Assembly: GCF_000331305.1 (NCBI RefSeq) | Contig: NZ_KB217478.1 | Coordinates: 1,657,679-1,721,678 of the forward strand | From: Calothrix sp. PCC 7103 | Lineage (GTDB): Bacteria; Cyanobacteriota; Cyanobacteriia; Cyanobacteriales; Nostocaceae | Direction of reading: 5' to 3' | DNA: 64,000 nucleotides | Part shown: positions 1 to 13,091 of the stretch, in pieces | How positions within the stretch are numbered: the stretch's first letter is position 1 | Layout of the letters: each line of letters opens with the position of its first letter | Position numbers and translations under genes: made by a program | Notes under the pieces: model-generated | Database searches by the model: none | What the model was told of the DNA's origin: nothing | What the model saw: the letters and a program-made list of their open reading frames with translations, nothing else

Positions 1-242
1 CTGACCTTGGAGATGAAGCAGTAATTTTAAATTTGAAATCAGGAGTTTACCACGGGTTGAATGAAGTTGGCGCCAGAGTTTGGAATTTTATCCAACAAGC
101 AAAAACAGTAAAAGAAATTTTAGAAATGCTGTTGCAAGAGTATGACGTTGATGTTGAACAATGTAACAAGGATTTAATAGCATTATTATCCGACCTTTTA
201 GCAGCAGAATTAATTAGTATTAGCAATGAGACGACTGCGTAA
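1..242 (+). CDS. PqqD-family RiPP recognition protein (lasso B1), 5' partial
   Basis: The reading frame is open to the window edge; the visible part begins DLGDEAVILNLKSGVYHGLN and ends ELISISNETTA. This is the PqqD/RRE fold that grips leader peptides and presents them to the processing enzymes. The 'LGDEAVILN...GVYHGLNEVG' opening is typical of free-standing lasso B1 proteins, not of PQQ synthesis. A TTG at 33 could be read as a start, but the conserved upstream residues show the true start lies before the window. The end overlaps the next gene by 17 bp, implying translational coupling with the B2 protease. Family is clear; the role in this cluster is inferred from context. Confidence 0.85.
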   Translation, partial: DLGDEAVILNLKSGVYHGLNEVGARVWNFIQQAKTVKEILEMLLQEYDVDVEQCNKDLIALLSDLLAAELISISNETTA

Positions 243-660
243 TTTTTTAAAGTTGAGAACTCGCGCACGTGTGCTTTTGCTCGTCACTTTTATTTTACTG
301 GCAAGTGTTAAATGTGGGCTAAAGTTGGCGCCTTTCCATAGCTTATTTAAATTTCTGGCTAGTGTTAGTGCGTTCAAAGTTGTGCATCGAGTAAATATAG
401 CTGAGATTATTTGGGCAACAAACGTTGTAACTCGCTATATGCCAGGTGGCGCCAAATGTTTAGCGCGTGCGTTGACAACTCAAGTATTGATGAACTGGCA
501 TGGTTACAAACCTGAATTTAGGATTGGTGTTGCAAAAGCTGACACTGGAAATTTGGAAGCACATGCTTGGATTGAATATCAAGGATTTGTAATTATTGGT
601 AATCTCGATGATTTGGGGCGTTTTATTCCCCTACCATCGCTCGAAGGAGTCAGAATATGA
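226..660 (+). CDS. Lasso peptide biosynthesis B2 protein (transglutaminase-like leader protease)
   Basis: A 144-residue protein with the expected B2 catalytic set: Cys78 in GGAKCLARAL, His113 in EAHAWIEY and an Asp at 128/129 in GNLDD. B2 proteins are papain/transglutaminase-like cysteine proteases that remove the leader after B1 delivers the precursor. The N-terminus (about residues 15-28) is hydrophobic, as is common in stand-alone B2 proteins. The start overlaps B1, and the stop overlaps the cyclase start in an ATGA arrangement, so B1-B2-C form one translational unit. Contains two GGCGCC sites. Confidence 0.9.
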   Translation: MRRLRNFLKLRTRARVLLLVTFILLASVKCGLKLAPFHSLFKFLASVSAFKVVHRVNIAEIIWATNVVTRYMPGGAKCLARALTTQVLMNWHGYKPEFRIGVAKADTGNLEAHAWIEYQGFVIIGNLDDLGRFIPLPSLEGVRI

Positions 661-2702
661 GTGGTATTGTGGGAATTTACAACCTTAATGGCGCCGATGT
701 AGATCGAAAAGATTTGGGAAAAATGGTGGATATATTAGCACATCGCGGATATGATGGCGCTGATATATGGGCTGAAAGCTCAATTGGGCTTGGACATCGG
801 ATGCTGTGGACAACACCAGAATCATTGTTAGAGAAATTACCTTTTAGTGATGAAAAATGTGAATTTGTTATTACATCCGATGCTCGCATAGATAACCGCG
901 AAGAGCTGATTGATGCGTTACAGTTTAATAACTGTCCACCAGAGAAAATTACTGATAGCGAACTTATACTGGCAGCTTATAAAAAGTGGGGTAATTCTTG
1001 CCCTGAGCAGATGTTGGGAGATTTTGCTTTTGCAATTTGGGATAAGCGCAACCAATCACTGTTTTGTGCTAGAGACCATTTTGGTGTCAAACCTTTTTAT
1101 TATCACCACAAACCAGATAGTATTTTTGCATTTAGTTCAGAAATAAAAGCCTTATTTGAATTAAAGCAGGTTCCCAGGTGCCTAAACGAAGTGAGAATGG
1201 GTGACTACTTGGCGCTAATGATGGAAGACCGAGTGATTACTTCATATCAAGATATTCTGCGTTTACCACCTGCCCACAGTATGGTAGTAAATCAACAGGG
1301 AATACAATTATGGTCTTACTGGTCGCTCGACCCCAACCGAGAAATTAAATTGGCTTCCAATGAAGCTTACGCTTTGGAATTCAAGAGAATTTTTACTGAA
1401 GCTGTACGCTGTCGTTTACGTAGTGCTTTTCCTATCATTAGTCATCTAAGTGGTGGATTAGATTCCTCTGCTGTGACTTGTATTGCTCGTTCAATACTTA
1501 GGGAAAAAAAGAAAACTCCGCTACACACAATTTCAACTATTTATGATAAGATTAAAGAGTGTGATGAGCGTGAATATATGAACGCCGTCATTGAGCAAGG
1601 TGGACTGGCACCTCATTTTGTCCACGGTGATGAAATTGGTCCGCTGTCAAATTTGGACATGATTTTTCAATACGAAGATGAAGCTTTGCTTGGTCCAAGT
1701 CATTTCTATCCTTGGCTAGTTAATCGCGAAACTAAGAAATTAGGAATGCGAATAGCGCTCGATGGGTTTGATGGTGATAGCACAGTTAGTCATGGTATTA
1801 CTAGACTCACTGAACTCGCACTTCAGGGTAAATGGAAGATTTTTTTCAAAGAGGCTAAGGCTGTTTCGTCTAACTATAGTGTTTCCTTGATAGATTTATT
1901 TCGGGGTTACGGTTTACTATATTTCCGACAACAGGCAATAAAATTTCAGTGGTTAAAGTTTCTTATAGCGGTACAGCAAATTCATAATCACTTAGGTGGT
2001 TCGCGTAAACAATTAATCATTTATCACGGACTTAAGCCCCTGTGGGCAGAGTTTAAAAAATTATTTACGAATTTTTTAAGTACAAAAAGACCTAGTAAAC
2101 AAACTCAAATTAGCCAAAGCAATGTATCTCAAATACCTATAATTAACTGTGACTTTTCAAAGAAAATTTGTTTAGACGAGCGTATCCAAATGATGGATAC
2201 TTCTAAACAAAAGCCATTAACCCTTAGAGAAGAACATCGGCAGAATCTTACACAAGGAGTTATGGCTTATACCTTGGAACAGATGGATCAATATGCAGCA
2301 ATGTTCTCATTAGAAGCGCGTCATCCATTTATGGATAAAAGATTGATCGAATTTTGCGTTGCTTTACCTGCCGAGCAAAAACTATTCAACGGATATGGAC
2401 GAATGGTAATGCGTCGTGCTTTAGAAGGAATATTACCAGAAAAAGTGCAGTGGCGCGGAGGGAAAGCGGATATGAGTGCAAATTTTGATGATGGGTTTAT
2501 TAACCGTAATCATCAAATTTTAGATGATGTGATGTCAAATAAAATTCAAAATATGTATAAATACGTAAATATAGATTTCTTGCAAAATGCTTACCAAAGA
2601 TTAATTTCATCAGAAAATCAAGCACAAGATGAGGAGTGTACAGCAGTTTGGCAAGCAGTGATTTTAGCTTTGTGGATGGAGTATAAACAGATTAATCAAT
2701 AA
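657..2702 (+). CDS. Lasso peptide macrolactam synthetase (asparagine synthetase-like cyclase)
   Basis: 681 residues with an AsnB layout: an N-terminal class II amidotransferase-like domain (about 1-200) and an ATP-PPi synthetase domain with SGGLDSSAV at about 265-273. The N-terminus reads MSGIVGIY. True glutamine-dependent AsnB has Cys at position 2, so the glutaminase nucleophile is replaced by Ser. That fits lasso cyclases, which adenylate an Asp/Glu side chain and close the ring with the core N-terminus without needing ammonia. An RBS-like GAAGGAG lies just upstream. An ordinary asparagine synthetase is less likely given the missing Cys and the neighbours. Confidence 0.9.
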   Translation: MSGIVGIYNLNGADVDRKDLGKMVDILAHRGYDGADIWAESSIGLGHRMLWTTPESLLEKLPFSDEKCEFVITSDARIDNREELIDALQFNNCPPEKITDSELILAAYKKWGNSCPEQMLGDFAFAIWDKRNQSLFCARDHFGVKPFYYHHKPDSIFAFSSEIKALFELKQVPRCLNEVRMGDYLALMMEDRVITSYQDILRLPPAHSMVVNQQGIQLWSYWSLDPNREIKLASNEAYALEFKRIFTEAVRCRLRSAFPIISHLSGGLDSSAVTCIARSILREKKKTPLHTISTIYDKIKECDEREYMNAVIEQGGLAPHFVHGDEIGPLSNLDMIFQYEDEALLGPSHFYPWLVNRETKKLGMRIALDGFDGDSTVSHGITRLTELALQGKWKIFFKEAKAVSSNYSVSLIDLFRGYGLLYFRQQAIKFQWLKFLIAVQQIHNHLGGSRKQLIIYHGLKPLWAEFKKLFTNFLSTKRPSKQTQISQSNVSQIPIINCDFSKKICLDERIQMMDTSKQKPLTLREEHRQNLTQGVMAYTLEQMDQYAAMFSLEARHPFMDKRLIEFCVALPAEQKLFNGYGRMVMRRALEGILPEKVQWRGGKADMSANFDDGFINRNHQILDDVMSNKIQNMYKYVNIDFLQNAYQRLISSENQAQDEECTAVWQAVILALWMEYKQINQ

Positions 2703-2779
2703 AGTTTTAAATTTTTATTTCGTATTTATAAATATAAAAACTACAACATAATTGGCTGGTTAATAACATATATTACACT

Positions 2780-3207
2780 GTAAGTCCAATTTCATCAGGA
2801 ACGGCAAATACTAATACAAACTAAATTTACCAAAAGGAGTTGCAATCATGAAAAAAACATATGGTGTTCCAGTACTAACAAATCACGGTGATCTTAAAAC
2901 CATCACTCAAGCTTTTGGCAAAAAAACTAGGAAAGACTTTGCGTTTTTCAACGGCGCCAGTATAGATCCAGGTATTGGTGTTGATACTAACGGAGATGGA
3001 GTAAACGATGCCATAACTGGTCAAGGTTCGAGAGATGGAATTATTAATTTGCTCTAAAATTCTATACCAATGTGCGAGTTTACAACTCAGCGAGAACTAT
3101 TTTGGCAGAGTGTAGCTTTGAAAACTAAATCGTAAGTCCAAGTACTTGGCAGGTTGTGGCTTGATGTGGTTGGTAATCTCCAAACATAAAACCTCACCGT
3201 AAGTCCA
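2780..3207 (+). repeat. GTAAGTCCA motif, three copies around the first precursor gene
   Basis: The 9-mer GTAAGTCCA occurs at 2780-2788, 3132-3140 and 3199-3207, always on the plus strand and only between genes: once before the first precursor and twice between the two precursors. The last two copies continue as AAGTACTTGG and AAGGTGGGG. It could be a protein- or RNA-level regulatory site, or a short dispersed repeat; the sequence alone does not decide. Confidence 0.4.
2848..3057 (+). CDS. Lasso-type RiPP precursor peptide A1, with EF-hand-like tail
   Basis: 69 residues with a strong RBS (AAAGGAG). The leader carries the Y-x-x-P-x-L-x-x-x-G recognition pattern (YGVPVLTNHG, residues 5-14) and ends in ITQ, with Thr20 at the usual penultimate leader position. 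Cleavage after Gln21 would give a core starting Ala22, with Asp30 at core position 9, a legitimate macrolactam acceptor. The 39 residues after Asp30 are far longer than a normal lasso tail. They contain DTNGDGVND (46-54), which matches a calcium-binding EF-hand/dockerin loop, and end GSRDGIINLL. The neighbouring precursor shares the leader, Asp30-Phe-x-Phe-Phe and the GS-x-D-x-II end. Precursor role is well supported; the cleavage site is inferred. Confidence 0.8.
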   Translation: MKKTYGVPVLTNHGDLKTITQAFGKKTRKDFAFFNGASIDPGIGVDTNGDGVNDAITGQGSRDGIINLL

Positions 3208-3270
3208 AGGTGGGGCACTACCTAAATCCTTAACCCTATTTAACTGTAAACTCACAAAAATCATTCAATC

Positions 3271-3492
3271 ATGAAGAAACAATACAACACGCCCACACTT
3301 ATTAATCACGGTTCAGTACAAAGTATTACTCAATTAGGAGGTGGGAGTAAAAGAAATGATTTTCTTTTCTTTAGTGCTGCTGCTGCCGCTGCCGTTGGCG
3401 TTAATCCAAATACCCCAGTTCTGACAGCTACAGGTTCTACAGATGCTATCATTAAATTATGTAATGAACCTGGTGCTAATTGCCCAAAATAA
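3271..3492 (+). CDS. Lasso-type RiPP precursor peptide A2, poly-alanine core
   Basis: 73 residues, a paralogue of the precursor just upstream. The leader has the same length and pattern (YNTPTLINHG at 5-14, ITQ at 19-21) and Asp30 is again followed by Phe-x-Phe-Phe. Cleavage after Gln21 would give a core beginning Leu-Gly-Gly-Gly with Asp at position 9. The tail differs: an alanine run (36-41), GVNPNTPVL, then GSTDAIIKL matching the A1 ending, and an extra C-terminal stretch with two cysteines (64 and 71). No clear RBS is visible, so its expression may depend on the operon transcript. Confidence 0.75.
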   Translation: MKKQYNTPTLINHGSVQSITQLGGGSKRNDFLFFSAAAAAAVGVNPNTPVLTATGSTDAIIKLCNEPGANCPK

Positions 3493-3636
3493 CCATAAGC
3501 TTTTATCACTAATCTCAATCTAAGTTTACAAGCTTTATAAGGCTTGATATTGGTTTTGACAAAGCTTTACAAAGCTAAAATTTCGTTGAGCCTGTCAGCA
3601 CTAAATAGATTGAATTTAGGTAAAGCTTAAATTGTG

Positions 3637-3671
3637 TTAAGGACAAACCAATAGTTCTGGTTTGTCCTTAA
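3637..3671 (+). terminator. Perfect 14-bp hairpin after the precursor genes
   Basis: Arms TTAAGGACAAACCA and TGGTTTGTCCTTAA pair without mismatch around a 7-nt loop, followed by an AT-rich stretch without a clean T-run. It could terminate or attenuate transcription, leaving precursor RNA more abundant than the downstream kinase and transporter message, or protect the precursor mRNA 3' end. Confidence 0.6.
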
Positions 3672-3771
3672 TATCTAATTATTTATAATATTTGCAAATT
3701 AATTTTTCAGGAATTCATATAATATTGAATATTAATATAAATTACTCAATTAACTTATTAGTAAATACCAT

Positions 3772-4680
3772 ATGAAAACTTACCAAGCTTATAATTTATA
3801 TATTTCTTCTGAATTAGAGTTACCAGAACTTGAAGAAGTTCAAGGTGAGCCAGATGTTATTATCAGGTTTGGTCTGATTGACAATTTAGCTATCATTAAA
3901 AATAATGATGGTAATTATTTTACTGGGGAAATTCCAGAAGTTGCTAAATTTCATGTTCAAAAAGGATGTTTAGTTATTGTTGAACCTTTACCTAACGTAG
4001 ACAAAGGTCTTCTTAGTACTATAGTTTTAGGTCCAGTGCTGTGTTTATTGCTAAGGCAACGCGGATTATTAGTTCTTCATGCGAGTGCTGTGAACATTAA
4101 TGGTAAAGCGGTTGCTTTTATGGGTGGTCCTGGTTGGGGTAAATCTACTTTAGCAACGGCATTTCATACACAGGGTTACAATGTGTTAAGCGATGATGTT
4201 ATGCCAATTCAAATTGGTCTAGATCAACCTTTAGTTTTTCCTGCGTATCCTCAATTTAAAGTTTGGCGTGAAGCTGCTACTTCGTTAGGCCATGATACAG
4301 ATACCATGTCGCCAATCTACGAAAATGCACCAAAATTATCTTATAAATTCTCTGGCGGATTTCAGAACACACCTCTACCTCTGTACCGAATTTATATTTT
4401 AGATAAAGGTGATGAACATCAGATTAGTTTAATTCATCCTCAAGAAGCTTTTGTAAATTTGATTCGACACTCCCGCGTGATTAATTCATTACTGCATCAA
4501 GATTTCGTATCTCAGCACCTGTATTTATCTACACACCTTATTAAACAGGTAAGTTTCCGTAGTTTTACTCGCAAACCCGCTTTAGAAGATTTACCGGAAC
4601 TTGTGCAGATGATTGTGAATGATGTAGCAGGGATTACCAAGGGTAAGGTCGCCATTGGCAACTCTACTACGGGAGTTTAG
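3772..4680 (+). CDS. HPr-kinase-like serine kinase of a lasso cluster
   Basis: 302 residues with a P-loop GGPGWGKST at about 118-126, LHASAV just before it and SDDV at 140-143, the layout of HPr kinase/phosphatase-like proteins. Relatives in paeninodin-type lasso clusters phosphorylate the C-terminal serine of the precursor. Neither precursor here ends in serine (A1 ends Leu, A2 ends Lys). The target may therefore be an internal Ser/Thr, such as the conserved GS-x-D motif, or a different precursor outside the window. The gene sits between the precursors and the exporter on the same strand. Confidence 0.8.
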   Translation: MKTYQAYNLYISSELELPELEEVQGEPDVIIRFGLIDNLAIIKNNDGNYFTGEIPEVAKFHVQKGCLVIVEPLPNVDKGLLSTIVLGPVLCLLLRQRGLLVLHASAVNINGKAVAFMGGPGWGKSTLATAFHTQGYNVLSDDVMPIQIGLDQPLVFPAYPQFKVWREAATSLGHDTDTMSPIYENAPKLSYKFSGGFQNTPLPLYRIYILDKGDEHQISLIHPQEAFVNLIRHSRVINSLLHQDFVSQHLYLSTHLIKQVSFRSFTRKPALEDLPELVQMIVNDVAGITKGKVAIGNSTTGV

Positions 4681-4750
4681 TATAAATATTTACCTAAAAT
4701 ATTGTTAACTACAAGCAATCAAGTGTTTTGAATTAATAAGGTCTTATATT

Positions 4751-6577
4751 TTGAACAGTAAATTAGAAAATACTAATATTATATTTTCGCATTTAATAAA
4801 AACTCTACAACTCGTATGGTCTGCATCTGGTTGCTGGACTGCTGCTTGGGCAGTGATGTTACTTGTTCAGGGTGTCTTACCTGCTATTTCCATTATTTTA
4901 ATTCGGCAGGTTGTAGATAATTTAGTTGCGGTCAGTGGTGCAGGTATGAACGGCACCACTATTGGCAAAATTCTTACACCTGTAGCTTTAATGGCAACTG
5001 TTATGCTTGTTGGCGAGTTTTTTAGTACATCGGGTGAGTGGATTCGCACGGCACAATCGGAGCTGATTAGTGATAAAATAACAAAGTTGATTCATGAGCA
5101 GTCTGTAGCTGTGGATTATAGTTTTTATGAATCTTCTGAATATAATGACAAATTAAATCGAGCTAGGGAAGGCGCCACTGGACGCTCGTTGGGGTTATTA
5201 GAAAGTATTGGCAGTCTTATGCAAAATACAGTAACGCTATTTGCAATAGCTACTGTTTTAATTCCTTATGGTTTAGGTCTGCCTGCTGTTCTACTTATTA
5301 GTGCTTTTCCAGCTTTTTATGTATTGTTATATATAAGTAAAATTCAGTACAAATGGTCGCAGAGAACAACCACTGACCGCCGTTGGTTGATGTATTACGA
5401 TTACCTGTTGACAAATAATGCAACAGCAGCAGAGTTACGATTGTTCGATTTTAGCAATTATTATCAAAATTTATATTTAAATCTAAGGATACGGCTGCGT
5501 AAAGAACAATTTAATTTATTAAAGCTACAAACCCTAGGTCGTATTATTGCCGCTATAGTTGTCTTAGCGATGACTGGTGTCGTATTGGCTTGGATAGGCA
5601 GACAAGTTTTACTTGGAATTCTTACTCTAGGGGACTTAGCGCTGTTTTTTCAAGCTTTTAGCCAAGGACAAGGAATAGTTAAAGACCTGATGAGCAATTT
5701 AGGGCAAATATATCGCAATAGTTTGTTTATTGGTAATTTATTTGAATTCTTGGAAATTAAGCCGAAAATTGTAGACCCTCCTAAACCTGTTGCGGTACCG
5801 CTCAAACCTGAGCAAGGAATTAGGTTTCGCCAAGTTACTTTCCGTTACCCAGGAAGTAACGAACCTGTTATAGAAAACTTTAACTTGACGTTACCTGCGG
5901 GTAAGGTCGTAGCTATTGTTGGTGATAACGGCGCCGGCAAGAGTACTTTGATTAAGTTACTTTGTCGTTTCTATGACCCAGATTCCGGAAGTATCGAACT
6001 AGATGGTATAGATATACGCCAATTTTCTGTTAAAGCTTTTCGTCGGTTAATCACTGTTTTATTTCAGTCGCATATTCCCTACTACACCACTGCTGGTGAA
6101 AATATAGCTCTAGGTGATATTTCGGCGCCATCAAGTCAAGCAGAAATAGAAGCAGCAGCTTTATCTTCAGGTATTCACGATAAAATCACTCGTTTACCTC
6201 TGGGTTACAACTCAATGCTAGGTAAGTTATTTCCTGATGGACAAGATTTAAGCGGTGGGCAATGGCAACGTTTGGCACTAGCGCGCGCATTTTTCAGACG
6301 TGCAGAAATTATTATTCTAGATGAACCAACCAGTGCAATGGATCCTTGGGGAGAACACGACTGGTTAGAGAGGTTTAGAGATTTAGCACGAGGACGCACC
6401 TCCATTGTGATTACTCACCGTTTTACTTTAGCAATGCGTGCGGATATTATTCATGTGATGCGCGCGGGTGAGATTGTGGAATCAGGAAACCATGATCAAT
6501 TGTTGGCTTTGGGTGGTTTGTATGCTGAGTCGTGGAAAGCGCAAATGGAATCGCATCTTCCTGAACTCAGTGTGTAA
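4751..6577 (+). CDS. ABC transporter, fused permease and ATPase (RiPP exporter)
   Basis: 608 residues: about six membrane helices in the first ~330 residues, then an ATPase domain with Walker A GDNGAGKST, signature LSGGQWQR and Walker B IIILDEPTSAMDP. This is the half-transporter form of lasso D exporters, which act as homodimers to pump the mature product out and give self-immunity. The start is TTG. No C39 peptidase domain is present, in keeping with leader removal by the separate B2 protease. Confidence 0.88.
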   Translation: MNSKLENTNIIFSHLIKTLQLVWSASGCWTAAWAVMLLVQGVLPAISIILIRQVVDNLVAVSGAGMNGTTIGKILTPVALMATVMLVGEFFSTSGEWIRTAQSELISDKITKLIHEQSVAVDYSFYESSEYNDKLNRAREGATGRSLGLLESIGSLMQNTVTLFAIATVLIPYGLGLPAVLLISAFPAFYVLLYISKIQYKWSQRTTTDRRWLMYYDYLLTNNATAAELRLFDFSNYYQNLYLNLRIRLRKEQFNLLKLQTLGRIIAAIVVLAMTGVVLAWIGRQVLLGILTLGDLALFFQAFSQGQGIVKDLMSNLGQIYRNSLFIGNLFEFLEIKPKIVDPPKPVAVPLKPEQGIRFRQVTFRYPGSNEPVIENFNLTLPAGKVVAIVGDNGAGKSTLIKLLCRFYDPDSGSIELDGIDIRQFSVKAFRRLITVLFQSHIPYYTTAGENIALGDISAPSSQAEIEAAALSSGIHDKITRLPLGYNSMLGKLFPDGQDLSGGQWQRLALARAFFRRAEIIILDEPTSAMDPWGEHDWLERFRDLARGRTSIVITHRFTLAMRADIIHVMRAGEIVESGNHDQLLALGGLYAESWKAQMESHLPELSV

Positions 6578-6766
6578 AGCAAAATTATGTAACAAGTTAA
6601 TTTTTTCTGACTTCAAATTCCTGATAGAACAAATTTTTACAGTAATAGTATTTACGTATAAGTAGTTCATCAGTAAGCCTTAAATAAAGCAAAATAGCTC
6701 TTATTTTAGTACGCATATTCCGAATTATCGAATAGATATAAAATAAGTTATCGAGTCTTAATTAAA

Positions 6767-7948
6767 ATGAATAGTCTATTTGAAACGAGCGAACATAAAA
6801 CCAAAATGCGTCTGGAAGATGAGTTGCTTTTATGTTGCGCGCGAACTTCTTTAAATTCTGTAACTACGGAACGTATAAAAGCTTTAGTTCATCAAGGTAT
6901 CGACTGGGGATACTTAATTCGTATTGCGATCTGGCATGGAGTAATGCCACTGTTGTATTGGAACTTGAAAAATACCAGCCTAGAAAGTATACCCAAAGAT
7001 CAACAAGAACAACTTCATAAATACTTTCAAACAATCAGTTGCCGTAATCTGTTTCTAACCAAGGAGCTAATAAAACTTCTACACTTATGTGAAGCTCATA
7101 ATATTCCTATGCTTCCTTTTAAAGGACCCATACTAGCGATTCAGGCTTATAAAAACCTTTCACTTCGTCAAATCAGCGACTTAGATATCCTAGTTAATAA
7201 GGAAGATTTTGAGAAAGTGGTTGATTTGCTAGTATCTCAAAAATATAAAATTGGTGTAGATGTTCCTTGGGAATGTCATTTGGTAGGAGATGATGGCATT
7301 TCTAATATAGACCTTCATCGCGATATTGTGCCAAAGCATCTTTCTTGCCCTATTAACGATGATTACTGGTGGGAAAATCTAGAGCCTTTCCATTTTGCAG
7401 GGACACTAGTACCTAATCTTTCGCCACAAGCTTGGCTTATACTTCTTTGTCTTAATGGAACTAAAGAATGCTGGCAAAGTCTAAATCGCATCTGTGATGT
7501 TGCTGAAGTTATCCGTACAAACCCAGAAATAAATTGGCCTTTGTTTATAGAACAAGCTAAAAAGCAAGGTTTAGAGCGACTTGTTTCTTTAGGGATAGTT
7601 TTAGCAGTAGATCTGCTTGCGGCGCCTGTTCCGGAAAAAATTTACAACAAACTTAAGTCTAATAAAGCAGTAAATTTTCTTGCAAAAAAGGTTGTTGAAC
7701 AACTTTTCTCAGAATCGAAGCAATCTGTAGACGAAGTAGAAAGAACTTTATACCACATCAGCACAAGAGAGCGCTGGATAGATAAAGCTCAGAGCTTTTG
7801 GGGTTTGATGGTACATTCTGGCTGGTTTACTCCAACAGAAAAAGATATGACTCTTATTTCATTGCCCCAAAAGTTTTATTGGTTATATTATTTTATCCGA
7901 CCAATCCGAGTAATTAGTAAATATAGATTGGTTAAAAACGGTAGCTAA
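6767..7948 (+). CDS. Nucleotidyltransferase family protein (NTP_transf_5 type)
   Basis: 393 residues containing LRQISDLDILV at about 138-148, the DxD metal-binding site of the nucleotidyltransferase fold, preceded by PFKGPILA and followed by NIDLH. Such proteins recur next to HPr-kinase-like genes in lasso clusters, where they may add a nucleotide or act on a phosphorylated product. The reaction in this family is not established. The same-strand position directly behind the exporter argues for membership in the RiPP cluster. Confidence 0.8.
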   Translation: MNSLFETSEHKTKMRLEDELLLCCARTSLNSVTTERIKALVHQGIDWGYLIRIAIWHGVMPLLYWNLKNTSLESIPKDQQEQLHKYFQTISCRNLFLTKELIKLLHLCEAHNIPMLPFKGPILAIQAYKNLSLRQISDLDILVNKEDFEKVVDLLVSQKYKIGVDVPWECHLVGDDGISNIDLHRDIVPKHLSCPINDDYWWENLEPFHFAGTLVPNLSPQAWLILLCLNGTKECWQSLNRICDVAEVIRTNPEINWPLFIEQAKKQGLERLVSLGIVLAVDLLAAPVPEKIYNKLKSNKAVNFLAKKVVEQLFSESKQSVDEVERTLYHISTRERWIDKAQSFWGLMVHSGWFTPTEKDMTLISLPQKFYWLYYFIRPIRVISKYRLVKNGS

Positions 7949-8007
7949 AAATATATTATGCTAGTATAAACTATCATCTTATCAAAATTGATATTTTTAA
8001 TAAAAAT

Positions 8008-9459
8008 ATGAATTATAAACAAATAAAAGTTATTGGCGTGGCTCTTATTGTGACAATTTTGACGTGTAGTAAGCCAGTTTTTGCTAAAACTTACTATGTA
8101 GATGTAAAAGGCTCTGATAGCAATAAAGGTACAAAAGAGCTTCCTTGGCAAACACTCAATAAAGCATTGACTTCTGTCGCATCAGAACAAGGAAACACTA
8201 TTAAATTAGGAAACGGTAATTTTGATTTAACTGGAGTAGTTTTGATACCGTCAGGAATAAATATTATTGGTTCAGGAACTAATAATACAATTATTCAGGG
8301 AGAAATGAAACTAGTTAGAGTCAAAAATACGTCTATAAAAAATCTTAGTTTAAATGGCAAAAGCTATGCTTATAAAGTTGGTAGTTACATTAGAGATTCA
8401 GAAAATTTAAATATTTCTAATTTAGCTGTCAATGGATATGCTATACAAGCTTTTGATATTCAAAGAGTTAAGAATTCTAAATTTTATAATATGAGAATTG
8501 CAGATAGCTCTTTCAATAAAAGAATTGCTGGGGGAGGTGGTCAACAATCATATACTATTACTATTGGAAATTTAACAAATGTTGACTTATATAATATTAT
8601 TATTGATACTACTGCGCGTGGAGGTGCAGGAATAGGAAGTGCTAACGATGCTTGGCCAAAAAAAACACCTTGGTCAGGACAACCTGGGGTATTTAGAAAC
8701 TTAAAGTTATACAACTTAGATATAAAAGTAGATAAGTGGAATGCTTGGGGAAATGGCTGGACACCACAAATGGCTTTAGAATTTTGGCATCATAACTGCT
8801 TTAATTGCCAAATATTCAATTCTACATTTAATAGTACCGTGTCTTTATTTTCTTTTCCGACTGATAAACCTACGCAAATTCAGGTCTATAACAATTTATG
8901 GTACGGACCAAATAATCCTTTCTATGCTTGTGAAGTAGCTAGTGATAATATTGAATTATATCAAAATTATATTCGTGGTGGCAGCTACCCTATTGCTCAA
9001 TTTGGGTATAACTATAAGAATCTTAATGTCCATCATAATATTTTTGAACGAACTGGTACTCCCACATTAGTTGCTCATTTTTTAGGAAAAATTAGTAATT
9101 TTAGATTTACTCAAAATACTGTTTATTTCAACAATTTAAACAATAATCTCTTTTACTTCCAAAAAGGCGAAGAAGCGAACCAAAAAATTAGCAATAATAT
9201 TTTTTATAATACTTCTTCCAGTGGAAAAAATTCATTAGGAGCAGCTGTTGGTGTGAGTAATAATCTTTTTGTAAATCTTAAACCCTCTGGAAAACAAGCA
9301 ATGAATTTTGACCCGAAACTGGCACTTTCAGGAGAAAAGCCATTTCCTTATTACAAGCCTCAATCTGGTAGCCGTGCTGTAAACTTAGGAGCAATTTTGG
9401 CTAACCAAAAAATGTGGAATGTAGGTTATGATGATCAAAGAACTGAGAAGAAGCCTTAA
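8008..9459 (+). CDS. Secreted right-handed beta-helix protein (DUF1565-like)
   Basis: 483 residues with a signal peptide ending near VFAKTYYV. The next stretch, YYVDVKGSDSNKGTKELPWQTLNKAL, is the DUF1565-type start of parallel beta-helix proteins. The rest is Asn-rich coils (ISNLAV, LYNIII, LYNLDI, LNVHHNIF) typical of pectate-lyase-like solenoids acting on or binding polysaccharide. It lies between the RiPP genes and the exopolysaccharide operon and could belong to either. A role in modifying the glycan made next door is plausible but unproven. The gene is very AT-rich and has no GGCGCC site, suggesting a separate origin. Confidence 0.75.
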   Translation: MNYKQIKVIGVALIVTILTCSKPVFAKTYYVDVKGSDSNKGTKELPWQTLNKALTSVASEQGNTIKLGNGNFDLTGVVLIPSGINIIGSGTNNTIIQGEMKLVRVKNTSIKNLSLNGKSYAYKVGSYIRDSENLNISNLAVNGYAIQAFDIQRVKNSKFYNMRIADSSFNKRIAGGGGQQSYTITIGNLTNVDLYNIIIDTTARGGAGIGSANDAWPKKTPWSGQPGVFRNLKLYNLDIKVDKWNAWGNGWTPQMALEFWHHNCFNCQIFNSTFNSTVSLFSFPTDKPTQIQVYNNLWYGPNNPFYACEVASDNIELYQNYIRGGSYPIAQFGYNYKNLNVHHNIFERTGTPTLVAHFLGKISNFRFTQNTVYFNNLNNNLFYFQKGEEANQKISNNIFYNTSSSGKNSLGAAVGVSNNLFVNLKPSGKQAMNFDPKLALSGEKPFPYYKPQSGSRAVNLGAILANQKMWNVGYDDQRTEKKP

Positions 9460-9491
9460 AATACAGTAGATTGCGTGTTTATATCATACGT

Positions 9492-9524
9492 GTAGAGAGA
9501 CTGTATTAATTCAGTCTCTACGTG
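9492..9524. terminator. Bidirectional hairpin between convergent genes
   Basis: AGAGACTG pairs with CAGTCTCT around an 8-nt loop, with further outer pairing across a 2-nt bulge. It lies between the beta-helix gene (plus) and the first glycosyltransferase (minus), so it can terminate both. The GTAGAGAC/GTCTCTAC core recurs in other palindromes of this window. Confidence 0.6.
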
Positions 9525-9553
9525 TGATTTTTATGTCGGTTGGGCGGATTTTA

Positions 9554-10792
9554 CTACCTGATTAAGGATTTCACAGGATACTGAGCTTGATAGGGATGCA
9601 AAATTTCTGTGTAGTTAGTAAAAGCAAGCTGACCAGATTGATGCCAATCAAATTTTGATTTGACTGCGTGGTAAGCGCACGTACCCATTTCTCGAAGTTG
9701 TTGTAAGTTTTCAGTCATCATTTCAAATGCTTCTGTAACCGCATTAGCATTTCCAGCTTCTACTAAAACACCGCTATTAGCATCAACTTGATAGGGAATA
9801 CCACCTACTTGAGTAGATAGAATTGGTAAACCAGATGCCATTGCTTCTAAAATGACTAAAGGTAAAGTATCCGAGAGCGTTGGATATACAAATAAGTCAG
9901 AGTATTGGAATAACGATATTATTTCCTCATTTGACACTCTATCTGTAAATACTATGTGTTGATGTGTATGACATTTTTGCAAATAAGAATCGTAATCAAT
10001 AATGTCACGTTTTTTACCGCAAACAATTAAAGTGAAAGCTTTTTTAGATTGAGTGAATGCATCTAGTAAAATTTCTAGACCTTTGTTTTTAGTATGGTTT
10101 CCAAGATAAATACAAACTGGATTTTTTTTGTCTGCTAGTTTTGGTAAACCGAAACGTTCTGCCACTAAATTAATATCGGTCGCTGTCTTTCGAGAATAGA
10201 ATATATGGTTAACTCCATTAGTTACTACAGATAATTTCTGGTTATCTACACCCAGTTGTTCTAACATTGGGTATTCTAAAGGAGAAAGAGCAAAAATTTT
10301 AGTTGCATTCTTAATTACATAATTTAGAGGGTTTTCTAAGAAAAACTTCCAAGCTAGTTTTTCATGTAAGTGTTTAAGAGAATAGGCACTTCCACCTGAT
10401 GTCACTTCCACAAAACCATGTGTTGACACTACGTATGGAATATTCTTTGTAATACATGCTTGGGCGACACGTTTCATTTCCAAAGCTGGTATGGGATTAT
10501 GTATGTGTACCAAATCATAATCCCCTTGAGAAATTAAAGATGGAATATCTGACCGATAAAATAAAGTGCGAAATTTATTTGGAAGTAACTCTTTAGTAAA
10601 CGAAAGAAAATTAGATGATTTCCTTTCTAACAGTCTTGCCTTATCTAACAAACTAACTTTTTCATCAAATGCCATGATGGCAATATCAACTTGGCAATAT
10701 TCAGCGGTGGCAGCACTAAGACATTTACCTGCATTAATAGCACCGCTTTCGTGCATATGAGGAGCAATAATGATTGCGGATAAAATTTTCAT
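9554..10792 (-). CDS. Glycosyltransferase family 4 protein
   Basis: 412 residues of GT-B fold. The C-terminal half carries YPTLSDTLPLVILEAMASGLPI, the E-x7-E donor-binding region of GT4 enzymes, and the N-terminal half has DLVHIHNP and VVSTHG. Such enzymes transfer a sugar from a nucleotide donor onto a lipid-linked glycan at the cytoplasmic membrane face. It is the last gene of the minus-strand exopolysaccharide operon and overlaps the upstream epimerase by 4 bp. Sugar specificity cannot be read from sequence. Confidence 0.85.
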   Translation of the reverse strand: MKILSAIIIAPHMHESGAINAGKCLSAATAEYCQVDIAIMAFDEKVSLLDKARLLERKSSNFLSFTKELLPNKFRTLFYRSDIPSLISQGDYDLVHIHNPIPALEMKRVAQACITKNIPYVVSTHGFVEVTSGGSAYSLKHLHEKLAWKFFLENPLNYVIKNATKIFALSPLEYPMLEQLGVDNQKLSVVTNGVNHIFYSRKTATDINLVAERFGLPKLADKKNPVCIYLGNHTKNKGLEILLDAFTQSKKAFTLIVCGKKRDIIDYDSYLQKCHTHQHIVFTDRVSNEEIISLFQYSDLFVYPTLSDTLPLVILEAMASGLPILSTQVGGIPYQVDANSGVLVEAGNANAVTEAFEMMTENLQQLREMGTCAYHAVKSKFDWHQSGQLAFTNYTEILHPYQAQYPVKSLIR

Positions 10793-11751
10793 TTGAGTTG
10801 ATATTTATTTACTAAAGATTGTGGGAGATCTGGTGCTTGAATTAAATCTTGAATAGAGTCATTAATATTAAATATTGGCGCCCATCCAAATAATTCCTTA
10901 ATACGATGATTATTTGCTAAGAGGAAAGGACGGTCAACTTCTCTAATTCTTTGCGGGTCTTGCTGTATTTCAAAATCTAGATTACCAATTTCTCGAATCT
11001 TATCAAGAATCTCGCTAACTGAATATTGATTCATTGTACCCAAATTGACTGTAGTTACCGTTCCCAAAGGAATATCTCCGCAGGAAGATACAGCCCAAAA
11101 ACCTCTTGCTGCGTCTCGTACATCAATATAATCTCTTTTAGGAGTAATATTACCAAGCTTTAAAACTTTATATCCAGCTTGAAATTGAGCAAATATCTCT
11201 GGTAACAAATGCGGATTTGTTTCTCCTGAACCAACTACATTGAAAAGTCTAACAATTACTGATGAAAATCCTCTAATCTGCGAAAAATATCGAATATAAT
11301 CTTCACAATGAAGTTTTGTAAAACCATAAACATCCATAGGTTGAGTTGGAGATTCAACTTCATCATGTGCTGTTTCTTGTGGAGCATAAACTGCGCCACT
11401 ACTAGCAAATACAAATCGGCAAGACTTAGGACAAAGTGATAAAATATTAATAGTACCTTCAATATTCGTGGATACAGCAAATTCGGGACTAGACTCACAC
11501 TCTGGAATATAATGAACTGCTGCTAAATGTATAATGACATCTGGACTGAAATTTTCAATAACTTCTGTCATTTTGTCTCGGTTACGAATATCAGCATTTA
11601 TAAATTTAAAATGTGACAAATCATCTTGAGTAAATCTCAATTCGCCATATCTTTCATTATCTACAACACAAACATTATGCTCGTTCATGATTTGTCGTGT
11701 CAATACACGACCTACATAGCCATTTCCACCAGTTATTAAAACATTTAACAT
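10789..11751 (-). CDS. NAD-dependent nucleotide-sugar epimerase/dehydratase (GalE-like)
   Basis: 320 residues of the extended short-chain dehydrogenase family: the NAD-binding GGNGYVG motif at the N-terminus, the catalytic Tyr-x3-Lys as YGFTK, and the upstream serine in FASSGAVY. It probably interconverts UDP-hexoses for the adjoining glycosyltransferases. The stop/start overlap with the downstream GT4 gene indicates co-translation. UDP-glucose 4-epimerase is the nearest named activity; a 4,6-dehydratase or other epimerase cannot be excluded. Confidence 0.8.
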   Translation of the reverse strand: MLNVLITGGNGYVGRVLTRQIMNEHNVCVVDNERYGELRFTQDDLSHFKFINADIRNRDKMTEVIENFSPDVIIHLAAVHYIPECESSPEFAVSTNIEGTINILSLCPKSCRFVFASSGAVYAPQETAHDEVESPTQPMDVYGFTKLHCEDYIRYFSQIRGFSSVIVRLFNVVGSGETNPHLLPEIFAQFQAGYKVLKLGNITPKRDYIDVRDAARGFWAVSSCGDIPLGTVTTVNLGTMNQYSVSEILDKIREIGNLDFEIQQDPQRIREVDRPFLLANNHRIKELFGWAPIFNINDSIQDLIQAPDLPQSLVNKYQLK

Positions 11752-11831
11752 AATCTCTCCTTAATTGCTAAGTATTAGCTTGATAAATAAGATGTACAAA
11801 CTTTTTTCTGTTATTTTCTAGTACTAAAAGA

Positions 11832-13091
11832 TTAACACGCATTTTGATTAATCAAATTGAGTCGTCTTTGTACTTTTAATAATCTTTGAGAACGACTACC
11901 TAATCCGATGGAAGTTCCTACAAGTAGGGCTACAGGAAGCATTACGAACAAATATACTACGACATTATCTGTTAACATTGCTAAACCTATAATTAGTGAA
12001 CTAAGAAATGCAGCTAGATGAATATGAGCATTGTTCCGATCATACCGATTTGCCCAATTCCAATTCCGGCAAGTTTTACACATCAGCCCGTAGTAGCCTA
12101 CTAGCCATAGAAATAGACCTATGTAGCCGTAGTCGTGGAGAATACGCAGGTAATCATTATGGGGGTGACCTGCTACTTTGTTAACTTTGAGAATAGCTGT
12201 TGATACTGAGCCTGGTCCTTTACCAATCCAAGGTGATTCTTGTGCGGAATTTAAGACAGTAGGCCAAAGGTCATTTCTTCCTGACGTATTAATTTTTACC
12301 CCTCCGACCGTAGCATTATCTCCTTGTTCAGTAAAGCGAGCTCTGATTGGCTCTACGTAATTGAAAGCTAAGTAAGCTATTAGTGCTATACCCAAGATCC
12401 ACAAGGCTAAACGCATTAATCCTTGTGATAAATCTTTTAGCGATATTTGAGATATTGGATAAAGGATAATCGCTAAAATCGTTGCAGTCCGAGAATAGCT
12501 CAAGGCAATAATTATGGTATTGAATATTGCAAACCACATTGCTCTGGATGAACCGTAACGCCATTTCGCTAAAAACCAAGTTTGCCCTATCAAGGAAAAT
12601 AAGGCGAATGAGCGGGCACCCATTAATATACTTGTTCCAAAACCACCAATGAGGAGACTAAAAGTATAAATTACAACTGCAAACAAAGCAGCATACAATA
12701 TACCTTTGTTAACGTACCATAATAAATGCGGATTTCGGTAACTTTCTATGCTACTGAGCAGTAAAAATCCAACAAATGCTACAAATACTAACAGGTTTTG
12801 TAATGCTAATTGTATTGGAATGCTTGATGTTTGTGAAAACCAAATTAAATTAGCACATCCTAATATTACAAATAAGACAAGCCATATCATTAAGAATGTA
12901 GCCTTGGGTATCTTGGCTCGTGCAAACACCAATAAAATACTGACGACAGCAGCAATGATAGTTAAAAATCCTTGGAAAGTTATAGGACCAACGTTGAATC
13001 GACGAAACATATCTGTCAGTCCAGAAGCAAAGGCTGCTACAGCTAATGTGGCAGTGAATGTGTTGAAGTTTTTTAGTTTGATGACAAACAC
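11832..13091 (-). CDS. O-antigen ligase/polymerase family membrane protein
   Basis: 419 residues with about ten membrane helices and the large periplasmic loop GKGPGSVST...GHPHNDYLRI, whose HPHND motif marks the WaaL/Wzy_C family. These proteins join or polymerise glycan repeat units on the periplasmic face. GTG start, overlapping the upstream glycosyltransferase by 19 bp. The same family covers ligases and polymerases; with Wzx and a Wzc-like kinase nearby, a Wzy-type polymerase role is the likelier reading. Confidence 0.85.
   Translation of the reverse strand: MFVIKLKNFNTFTATLAVAAFASGLTDMFRRFNVGPITFQGFLTIIAAVVSILLVFARAKIPKATFLMIWLVLFVILGCANLIWFSQTSSIPIQLALQNLLVFVAFVGFLLLSSIESYRNPHLLWYVNKGILYAALFAVVIYTFSLLIGGFGTSILMGARSFALFSLIGQTWFLAKWRYGSSRAMWFAIFNTIIIALSYSRTATILAIILYPISQISLKDLSQGLMRLALWILGIALIAYLAFNYVEPIRARFTEQGDNATVGGVKINTSGRNDLWPTVLNSAQESPWIGKGPGSVSTAILKVNKVAGHPHNDYLRILHDYGYIGLFLWLVGYYGLMCKTCRNWNWANRYDRNNAHIHLAAFLSSLIIGLAMLTDNVVVYLFVMLPVALLVGTSIGLGSRSQRLLKVQRRLNLINQNAC

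Follow-up and report, generated by a model that had tools for sequence, protein, structure and literature searches.

What does a lasso peptide cluster make when both of its precursors run on far beyond the predicted ring, and is the tail discarded or kept? The question arises at the start of the window (the whole 64,000-nucleotide stretch analysed here, G000:C7:1657679-1721678, from an 11.6-Mb genome of 12 contigs), where positions 1-7948 hold a single row of genes for B1, B2, cyclase, A1, A2, kinase, ABC exporter and nucleotidyltransferase, all on the + strand. Its features are:

1-242, + strand: 3' part of the gene for B1, a PqqD-type leader-binding protein (PF05402, 1.4e-20)
226-660, + strand: B2 leader peptidase, 144 aa (NF033537, 1e-28, over cut-off; PF13471, 3.6e-20)
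657-2702, + strand: lasso macrolactam cyclase, 681 aa, Ser at position 2 (NF033535, 1092.5 bits, cut-off 525)
2848-3057, + strand: precursor A1, 69 aa, with leader 1-21, predicted ring 22-30, loop and tail 31-69 (NF033528, 4.3e-19)
3025-3036, + strand: A1 tail motif G60-S61-R62-D63, Ser61 being the candidate phosphate acceptor (motif conserved in relatives)
3271-3492, + strand: precursor A2, 73 aa, with leader 1-21, predicted ring 22-30, loop and tail 31-73 (NF033528, 1.7e-22)
3433-3444, + strand: A2 tail motif G55-S56-T57-D58, Ser56 being the candidate phosphate acceptor (motif conserved in relatives)
3460-3483, + strand: A2 Cys64 to Cys71, putative tail disulphide (Cys counts in 121 relatives)
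3634-3674, + strand: 17-pair, attenuator-like hairpin between A2 and the kinase gene (comparable stems enriched in this gap in relatives)
3772-4680, + strand: HprK-type kinase, 302 aa (weak HprK profile matches plus motif)
4078-4197, + strand: kinase motif H103-G118-G121-G123-K124-S125-D141-D142 (eight columns invariant in 11 aligned kinases)
4751-6577, + strand: MsbA-type ABC exporter, 608 aa (PF00005, ABC_tran, 3e-32)
6767-7948, + strand: nucleotidyltransferase, 393 aa, with D138-x-D140 (PF14907, 2.8e-58)

Positions 1-7948 are almost certainly a lasso peptide cluster, with genes for an RRE protein, a B2 peptidase and a cyclase adjoining the precursor genes. Profile matches for B1, B2, the cyclase and the precursors bear out the cluster with two paralogous precursors that the preliminary description had read here, and the genes do share one strand, although B1 is cut by the window edge: the full gene encodes 104 aa and starts 73 bases 5' of the window (ORF L002:13607-13921). 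A1 and A2 score 68.2 and 79.1 bits with NF033528 (lasso_cyano; curated cut-off 33). Since both precursors exceed this cut-off and the cyclase that of NF033535 (lass_lactam_cya), the cluster belongs to a recognised cyanobacterial lasso type and its kind is already known. The NF033528 model has 35 positions, spanning residues 1-35, and the tail motif and Cys pairing considered below fall outside it. Singling out the cyclase as a Ser2 variant proved mistaken: across 124 cyclase ORFs, nearly all readable N-termini have Ser directly behind the start Met (one reads otherwise, and about nine ORFs are mis-started), and an unusual Ser2 cyclase was rejected. For the nucleotidyltransferase, a sequence search against solved structures gave no match, but in addition to its PF14907 match the protein matched a nucleotidyltransferase fold. 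Polysaccharide-type genes flank the cluster (window 8008-13091 and L002:11985-12782): upstream lies a WecG/TagA glycosyltransferase gene, downstream lie genes of the glycosyltransferase, epimerase and O-antigen ligase families.

Both precursors have a 21-residue leader that contains YxxPxL and ends in ITQ, with Thr at -2, followed by Asp30 (core Asp9) in a D-F-x-F-F segment and, further on, by GS-x-D-x-I-I. Asp30 is followed by 39 residues in A1 and 43 in A2, giving cores of 48 and 52 residues. Apart from YxxPxL and the core lengths, these features had been described beforehand and match the sequence; a connection between the GS-x-D Ser and the kinase, and the Cys pair of A2, had not been part of that description. 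The candidate Ser is followed by 8 residues in A1 and 17 in A2, and the C-termini, NLL and CPK, lack the C-terminal Ser of paeninodin-type precursors. A2 carries two tail cysteines (Cys64 and Cys71), as class IV lasso peptides do; A1 has no Cys, and the two products would therefore differ. In the A1 loop (window 2983-3009), the stretch DTNGDGVND resembles an EF-hand or dockerin calcium loop. Such stretches are rare in relatives: 10 of 121 match D-x-[DN]-x-[DN]-G (null mean 1.7, maximum 5, 300 shuffles), and eight of the 10 are DCDNNG from four related loci (L033, L034, L035 and L037), so we draw no conclusion about a calcium site.

We favour, with moderate confidence, the hypothesis that the cyanobacterium uses a paeninodin-type set of enzymes to produce two lasso peptides with long tails, which are modified and retained. 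B1 would bind the YxxPxL leader and hand the precursor to the kinase, which would phosphorylate the Ser of GS-x-D (Ser61 in A1, Ser56 in A2). B2 would then cleave after ITQ and the cyclase would close a nine-residue ring onto Asp30, presumably around a threaded tail, with the bulky FxFF segment lying near the ring. Next, the phosphate may be capped by the nucleotidyltransferase, conceivably with a sugar, as happens in pseudomycoidin, and the exporter would release the product with most of its tail on, that of A2 being closed by a Cys64-Cys71 disulphide.

Comparison with relatives drew on 113 loci (52 plus 60 regions plus the window) holding the 124 cyclase ORFs; a further 16 places from a family-wide NF033535 search lie outside this set. 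Precursors were extracted by a leader pattern that required YxxPxL and Thr(-2), so the relatives are no test of these features, and all counts of relatives are of non-independent samples. Precursors were called long-type if they had a leader of 20-21 residues, a core of at least 30 and Asp at core 9 or 10. A first pass gave 137 cores of at least 30 residues, 117 of them long-type and 20 not (including five Asp8 precursors in L057). With a wider pattern, under which six cyclase loci yielded no precursor, the number of distinct precursors was 180. Of these, 123 are long-type; among the 57 others, Ser is the final residue in 29 and stands elsewhere within the last four in 19, leaving 9 with neither (a few are alternative starts). 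Dropping L082 (misassigned) and L092 (masked bases) left 121 complete long-type precursors, among them L069, which was retained despite a short-type look.

The family is widely spread. NF033528 exceeds its cut-off in 10 of 386 genomes across the phylum (19 at E 0.001), and NF033535 does so in 47 of 388 genomes of the order and in 83 of 217 of the window's family, which makes the fate of the tail testable in many strains. By cyclase, the nearest named relative is Calothrix sp. HK-06 NIES-2101 (72% identity; records of the window's own genome were possibly left out), followed at 63-66% by Fischerella, Spirirestis, Dendronalium, Tolypothrix, Atlanticothrix and a Nostocales record; the last of the 11 cyclase-matched loci is a distant Flavobacteria MAG (31%). 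Most mapped loci share the order B1-B2-C-A(n)-K-D, with N present in part. Long-type clusters (79) contain one long-type precursor in 49 cases, two in 15, three in 12, four in 2 and five in 1. In L037, L034, L035, L057, L049 and others, three to five precursor genes stand in tandem, alike in their leaders but diverse in their tails. Two lasso cyclases per locus were seen in L042, L045, L116, L119, L124, L126, L129 and L132, and a long-type precursor is paired with a short-type one in L119, L124 and L132.

Because only precursors with Thr(-2) and Asp at core 9 or 10 were selected, the informative figure is the split between the two positions: Asp9 in 115 of the 121 long-type precursors, and Asp10 without Asp9 in 6. 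Even within this selected set, the split supports the nine-residue rings (22 to 30) proposed in the preliminary description, and we consider such rings very probable in the A1 and A2 products. Homologues lacking an acid at core 7-9 had been named as the observation that would speak against this; five of 121 (Asp10 only) are of that sort and 116 carry such an acid. In the full first-pass set of 170 precursors, regardless of type, acids within core 7-10 stood at 9 only in 119, 8 only in 18, 8 and 9 in 8, 7 and 9 in 6, 10 only in 5, other combinations in 6 and none in 8. The precursors with Asp10 but not Asp9 come from L038, L045, L047, L049, L069 and L134. The x-F-G core start is kept in L038, L045 and L049, which makes an extra ring residue, as opposed to a shifted leader cut, likely. 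These three are predicted to form 10-residue rings, outside the known 7-9 range, and no report of such rings was found in the open-access literature searched.

Long-type cores have a median length of 43 residues (more than 33 in 113 of 121, at least 52 in 12), with a median of 34 after the ring acid for loop and tail. The tails of A1 and A2 had been called unusually long. This holds against characterised lasso peptides, among which pandonodin has the longest natural tail given in the passages covered of a 2026 review, at 18 of 33 residues in total (PMC13352647); within the cyanobacterial family, however, such lengths are ordinary. The far end of the tail is conserved beyond chance. GS-x-[DN] occurs in 80 of 121 tails (mean 9.9 and maximum 23 in 1000 tail shuffles) and a looser form, [GD][ST] then one or two residues then [DNS], in 116 of 121 (mean 54.6, maximum 69). 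In a set thinned to less than 75% identity, G[ST]-x-[DN] is present in 58 of 74 (mean 9.2, maximum 19, 500 shuffles), and when the precursors are anchored on the motif, position +2 is Asp in 53 of 71, in a profile that is partly circular. Thr replaces the motif Ser in L107 and L125. The looser form is absent from five of the 121: one of three precursors in L122, where Cys occupies the Ser place, L047, L069 and two from L138, of which L069 and the L138 pair have a C-terminal Ser, a tendency of short-type precursors. L134 matches it in a chance-like way alone, and the clear motif is missing there. Where a nucleotidyltransferase was detected in the locus, 61 of 65 precursors carry the motif; where none was detected, 55 of 56 do.

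Cysteines in the long-type cores come in pairs. No Cys lies within a ring; 58 of the 121 cores have none, 62 have two and one has a single Cys, where random placement at an equal mean would give about 45 single-Cys cores. The sole exception is the L122 precursor with Cys in place of the motif Ser. The thinned set repeats the pattern (two Cys in 34 of 74, none in 39, one in 1), and in its 34 two-Cys precursors the distance from the motif Ser to the first Cys is 4 or 5 residues in 26 and 8 in 4, while in the other 4 this Cys precedes the Ser; in A2 the distance is 8. A tail disulphide, as in class IV lasso peptides, best explains these paired counts. A Cys64-Cys71 bond in the A2 tail is accordingly predicted as likely, and we infer comparable bonds in about half of long-type tails.

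A kinase gene lies near 78 of 79 long-type-labelled cyclase genes (the 79 include the mislabelled L082, and contig ends truncate a few of the kinase genes). The one cyclase gene without a kinase gene nearby is the upstream member of a tandem pair in L116, where the kinase of the locus lies further on. The conserved end motif, this near-universal kinase gene and the paired cysteines together favour a tail that is modified and kept, and we regard retention in the product as probable. The preliminary description had taken the tail length to imply either another cleavage or a tailed product; these observations lean towards the latter. An alternative, which we consider unlikely though the strongest of the rivals, is that the tail serves as a follower: its end motif would be recognised by the kinase, cyclase or exporter, and a host protease would then remove it and leave a short class II lasso peptide. 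The motif Ser is followed by anything from 0 to 28 residues, the tails exceed any in the passages covered of the 2026 review, and tail trimming by host carboxypeptidases is described there (PMC13352647). However, 30 of the 34 first cysteines in the thinned set lie after the motif Ser, where pairing is sensible only if the tail is kept, and in the gene row of the window B2 is the sole protease seen by ORF and Pfam inspection, with no peptidase family in the exporter among Pfam hits down to E 0.1. The relatives' loci were mapped for B1, B2, C, K, D, N and precursors only, and a protease may be present there.

If the tail is kept and modified, its Ser is a candidate acceptor for the kinase. The kinase matches NCBIfam and Pfam profiles weakly, its best match having an E-value of 2.1e-11 and 43.5 bits where the cut-off is 200. 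Its profile gave marginal P-loop matches to solved structures (dephospho-CoA kinase and HPr kinase, E 0.012-0.031), a single-sequence search of solved structures gave nothing better, and a predicted structure, at pLDDT 36.4, was left unused. Its motif, however, has the same spacing as H148-G163-G166-G168-K169-S170-D186-D187 of BsfK, in which six motif residues mattered on mutation (PMC10368454). Of 117 kinase ORFs in the clusters, 102 have the exact motif, 12 a looser one and three, all truncated, none. On a kinase tree of 112 rows, made by a quick method and with several long branches, long and short types are separated by 2 changes; separating the long type from all other labels, including precursor-less clusters, takes 8 (shuffled mean 34.6). 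Short cores (fewer than 30 residues, n = 33) end in Ser in 21 cases and have Ser within the last three residues in 28.

Kinases of paeninodin and pseudomycoidin modify a C-terminal Ser, and in pseudomycoidin PsmN adds a hexose to the phosphorylated Ser (PMC9266682). BsfK is an example of such a kinase using another site. The simplest reading for the long type is that the internal motif Ser is the acceptor, and we are moderately confident that Ser61 in A1 and Ser56 in A2 fill this role. Against it stands the fact that characterised lasso kinases use a C-terminal Ser or core Ser3 of BsfA, and the literature passages covered give no internal, distal tail Ser as an acceptor. The kinase could instead target a hydroxyl in the ring or loop, with GS-x-D a structural turn. 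BsfK phosphorylates core Ser3 and not the C-terminus (PMC10368454), LppK targets S3 in a core that is linear (PMC13381572), and possible acceptors exist here in Thr at core 6 of A1 and Ser at core 5 of A2. Across 123 long-type precursors, though, Ser or Thr occurs in at most 41 at any of ring positions 1-8, while the tail hydroxyl is nearly universal; we think a ring or loop acceptor rather improbable, although the motif itself could be structural. A linear or unthreaded product, like those of a Bacillota linear polyphosphorylated RiPP family that uses the same RRE, kinase, nucleotidyltransferase and exporter set (PMC13381572), is very hard to reconcile with the presence of B2, a high-scoring cyclase, and Thr(-2) and Asp9 in both precursors.

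Several known systems come close. Like the paeninodin and pseudomycoidin clusters, the window has a lasso kinase gene with a His-Lys-Asp-Asp motif and, like the latter, a nucleotidyltransferase gene (PMC9266682); it differs in that the candidate Ser is internal and not C-terminal. BsfA of Bradymonas sediminis shares the K and N genes and a kinase acting off the C-terminus, and BsfK accepts Thr for Ser; its acceptor, however, lies in the ring and its leader has Ile at -2 (PMC10368454). Pandonodin, of class IV, resembles the proposed A2 product in its long tail and tail-tail disulphide, but is shorter, proteobacterial and from a cluster said to hold A-D genes only (PMC13352647, PMC9266682). A 36-residue lasso peptide was predicted from a Nostocales precursor of Cyanocohniella sp. 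LLY (PMC9332814), and the prediction of long cores is therefore not new; that peptide is a prediction only, and the passages covered do not discuss a lasso kinase, tail motif or cysteines. A lasso cluster called by antiSMASH is reported from Chlorogloeopsis (PMC11392904). Nor is tolerance of long tails by cyclases new, since some lasso peptides mature with a protein fused at the C-terminus (PMC13352647). What would be new is a long tail that is natural, conserved and equipped with a modification site, and a tail Ser acceptor would be a third kind of lasso-kinase site. The main text of the 2026 review has no word beginning "cyanobacter" (PMC13352647), and no discussion of the tail motif, the Cys pairing or the kinase in cyanobacteria was found in the parts covered of the open-access literature searched. 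We tentatively speculate that the long type is a widespread, chemically unseen lasso branch, in which a threaded ring bears a conserved tail domain roughly double the length of any known tail, with an internal distal Ser that is phosphorylated and in some members also capped, a disulphide in about half and 10-residue rings in a few.

The hairpin between A2 and the kinase gene may bear on expression. Rfam gave no match at the gathering threshold in window 1-12000, and a genome-wide repeat was rejected, as a search of both strands of the genome found the hairpin only at its own position. Of 73 long-type clusters, 27 have a stem of at least 10 perfect pairs in the precursor-kinase gap, whereas shuffled gaps have one in 0.4% of cases; the stems of the relatives occupy the same place with differing sequences. 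This arrangement fits partial termination, which would keep transcripts of the precursors above those of the kinase, exporter and nucleotidyltransferase.
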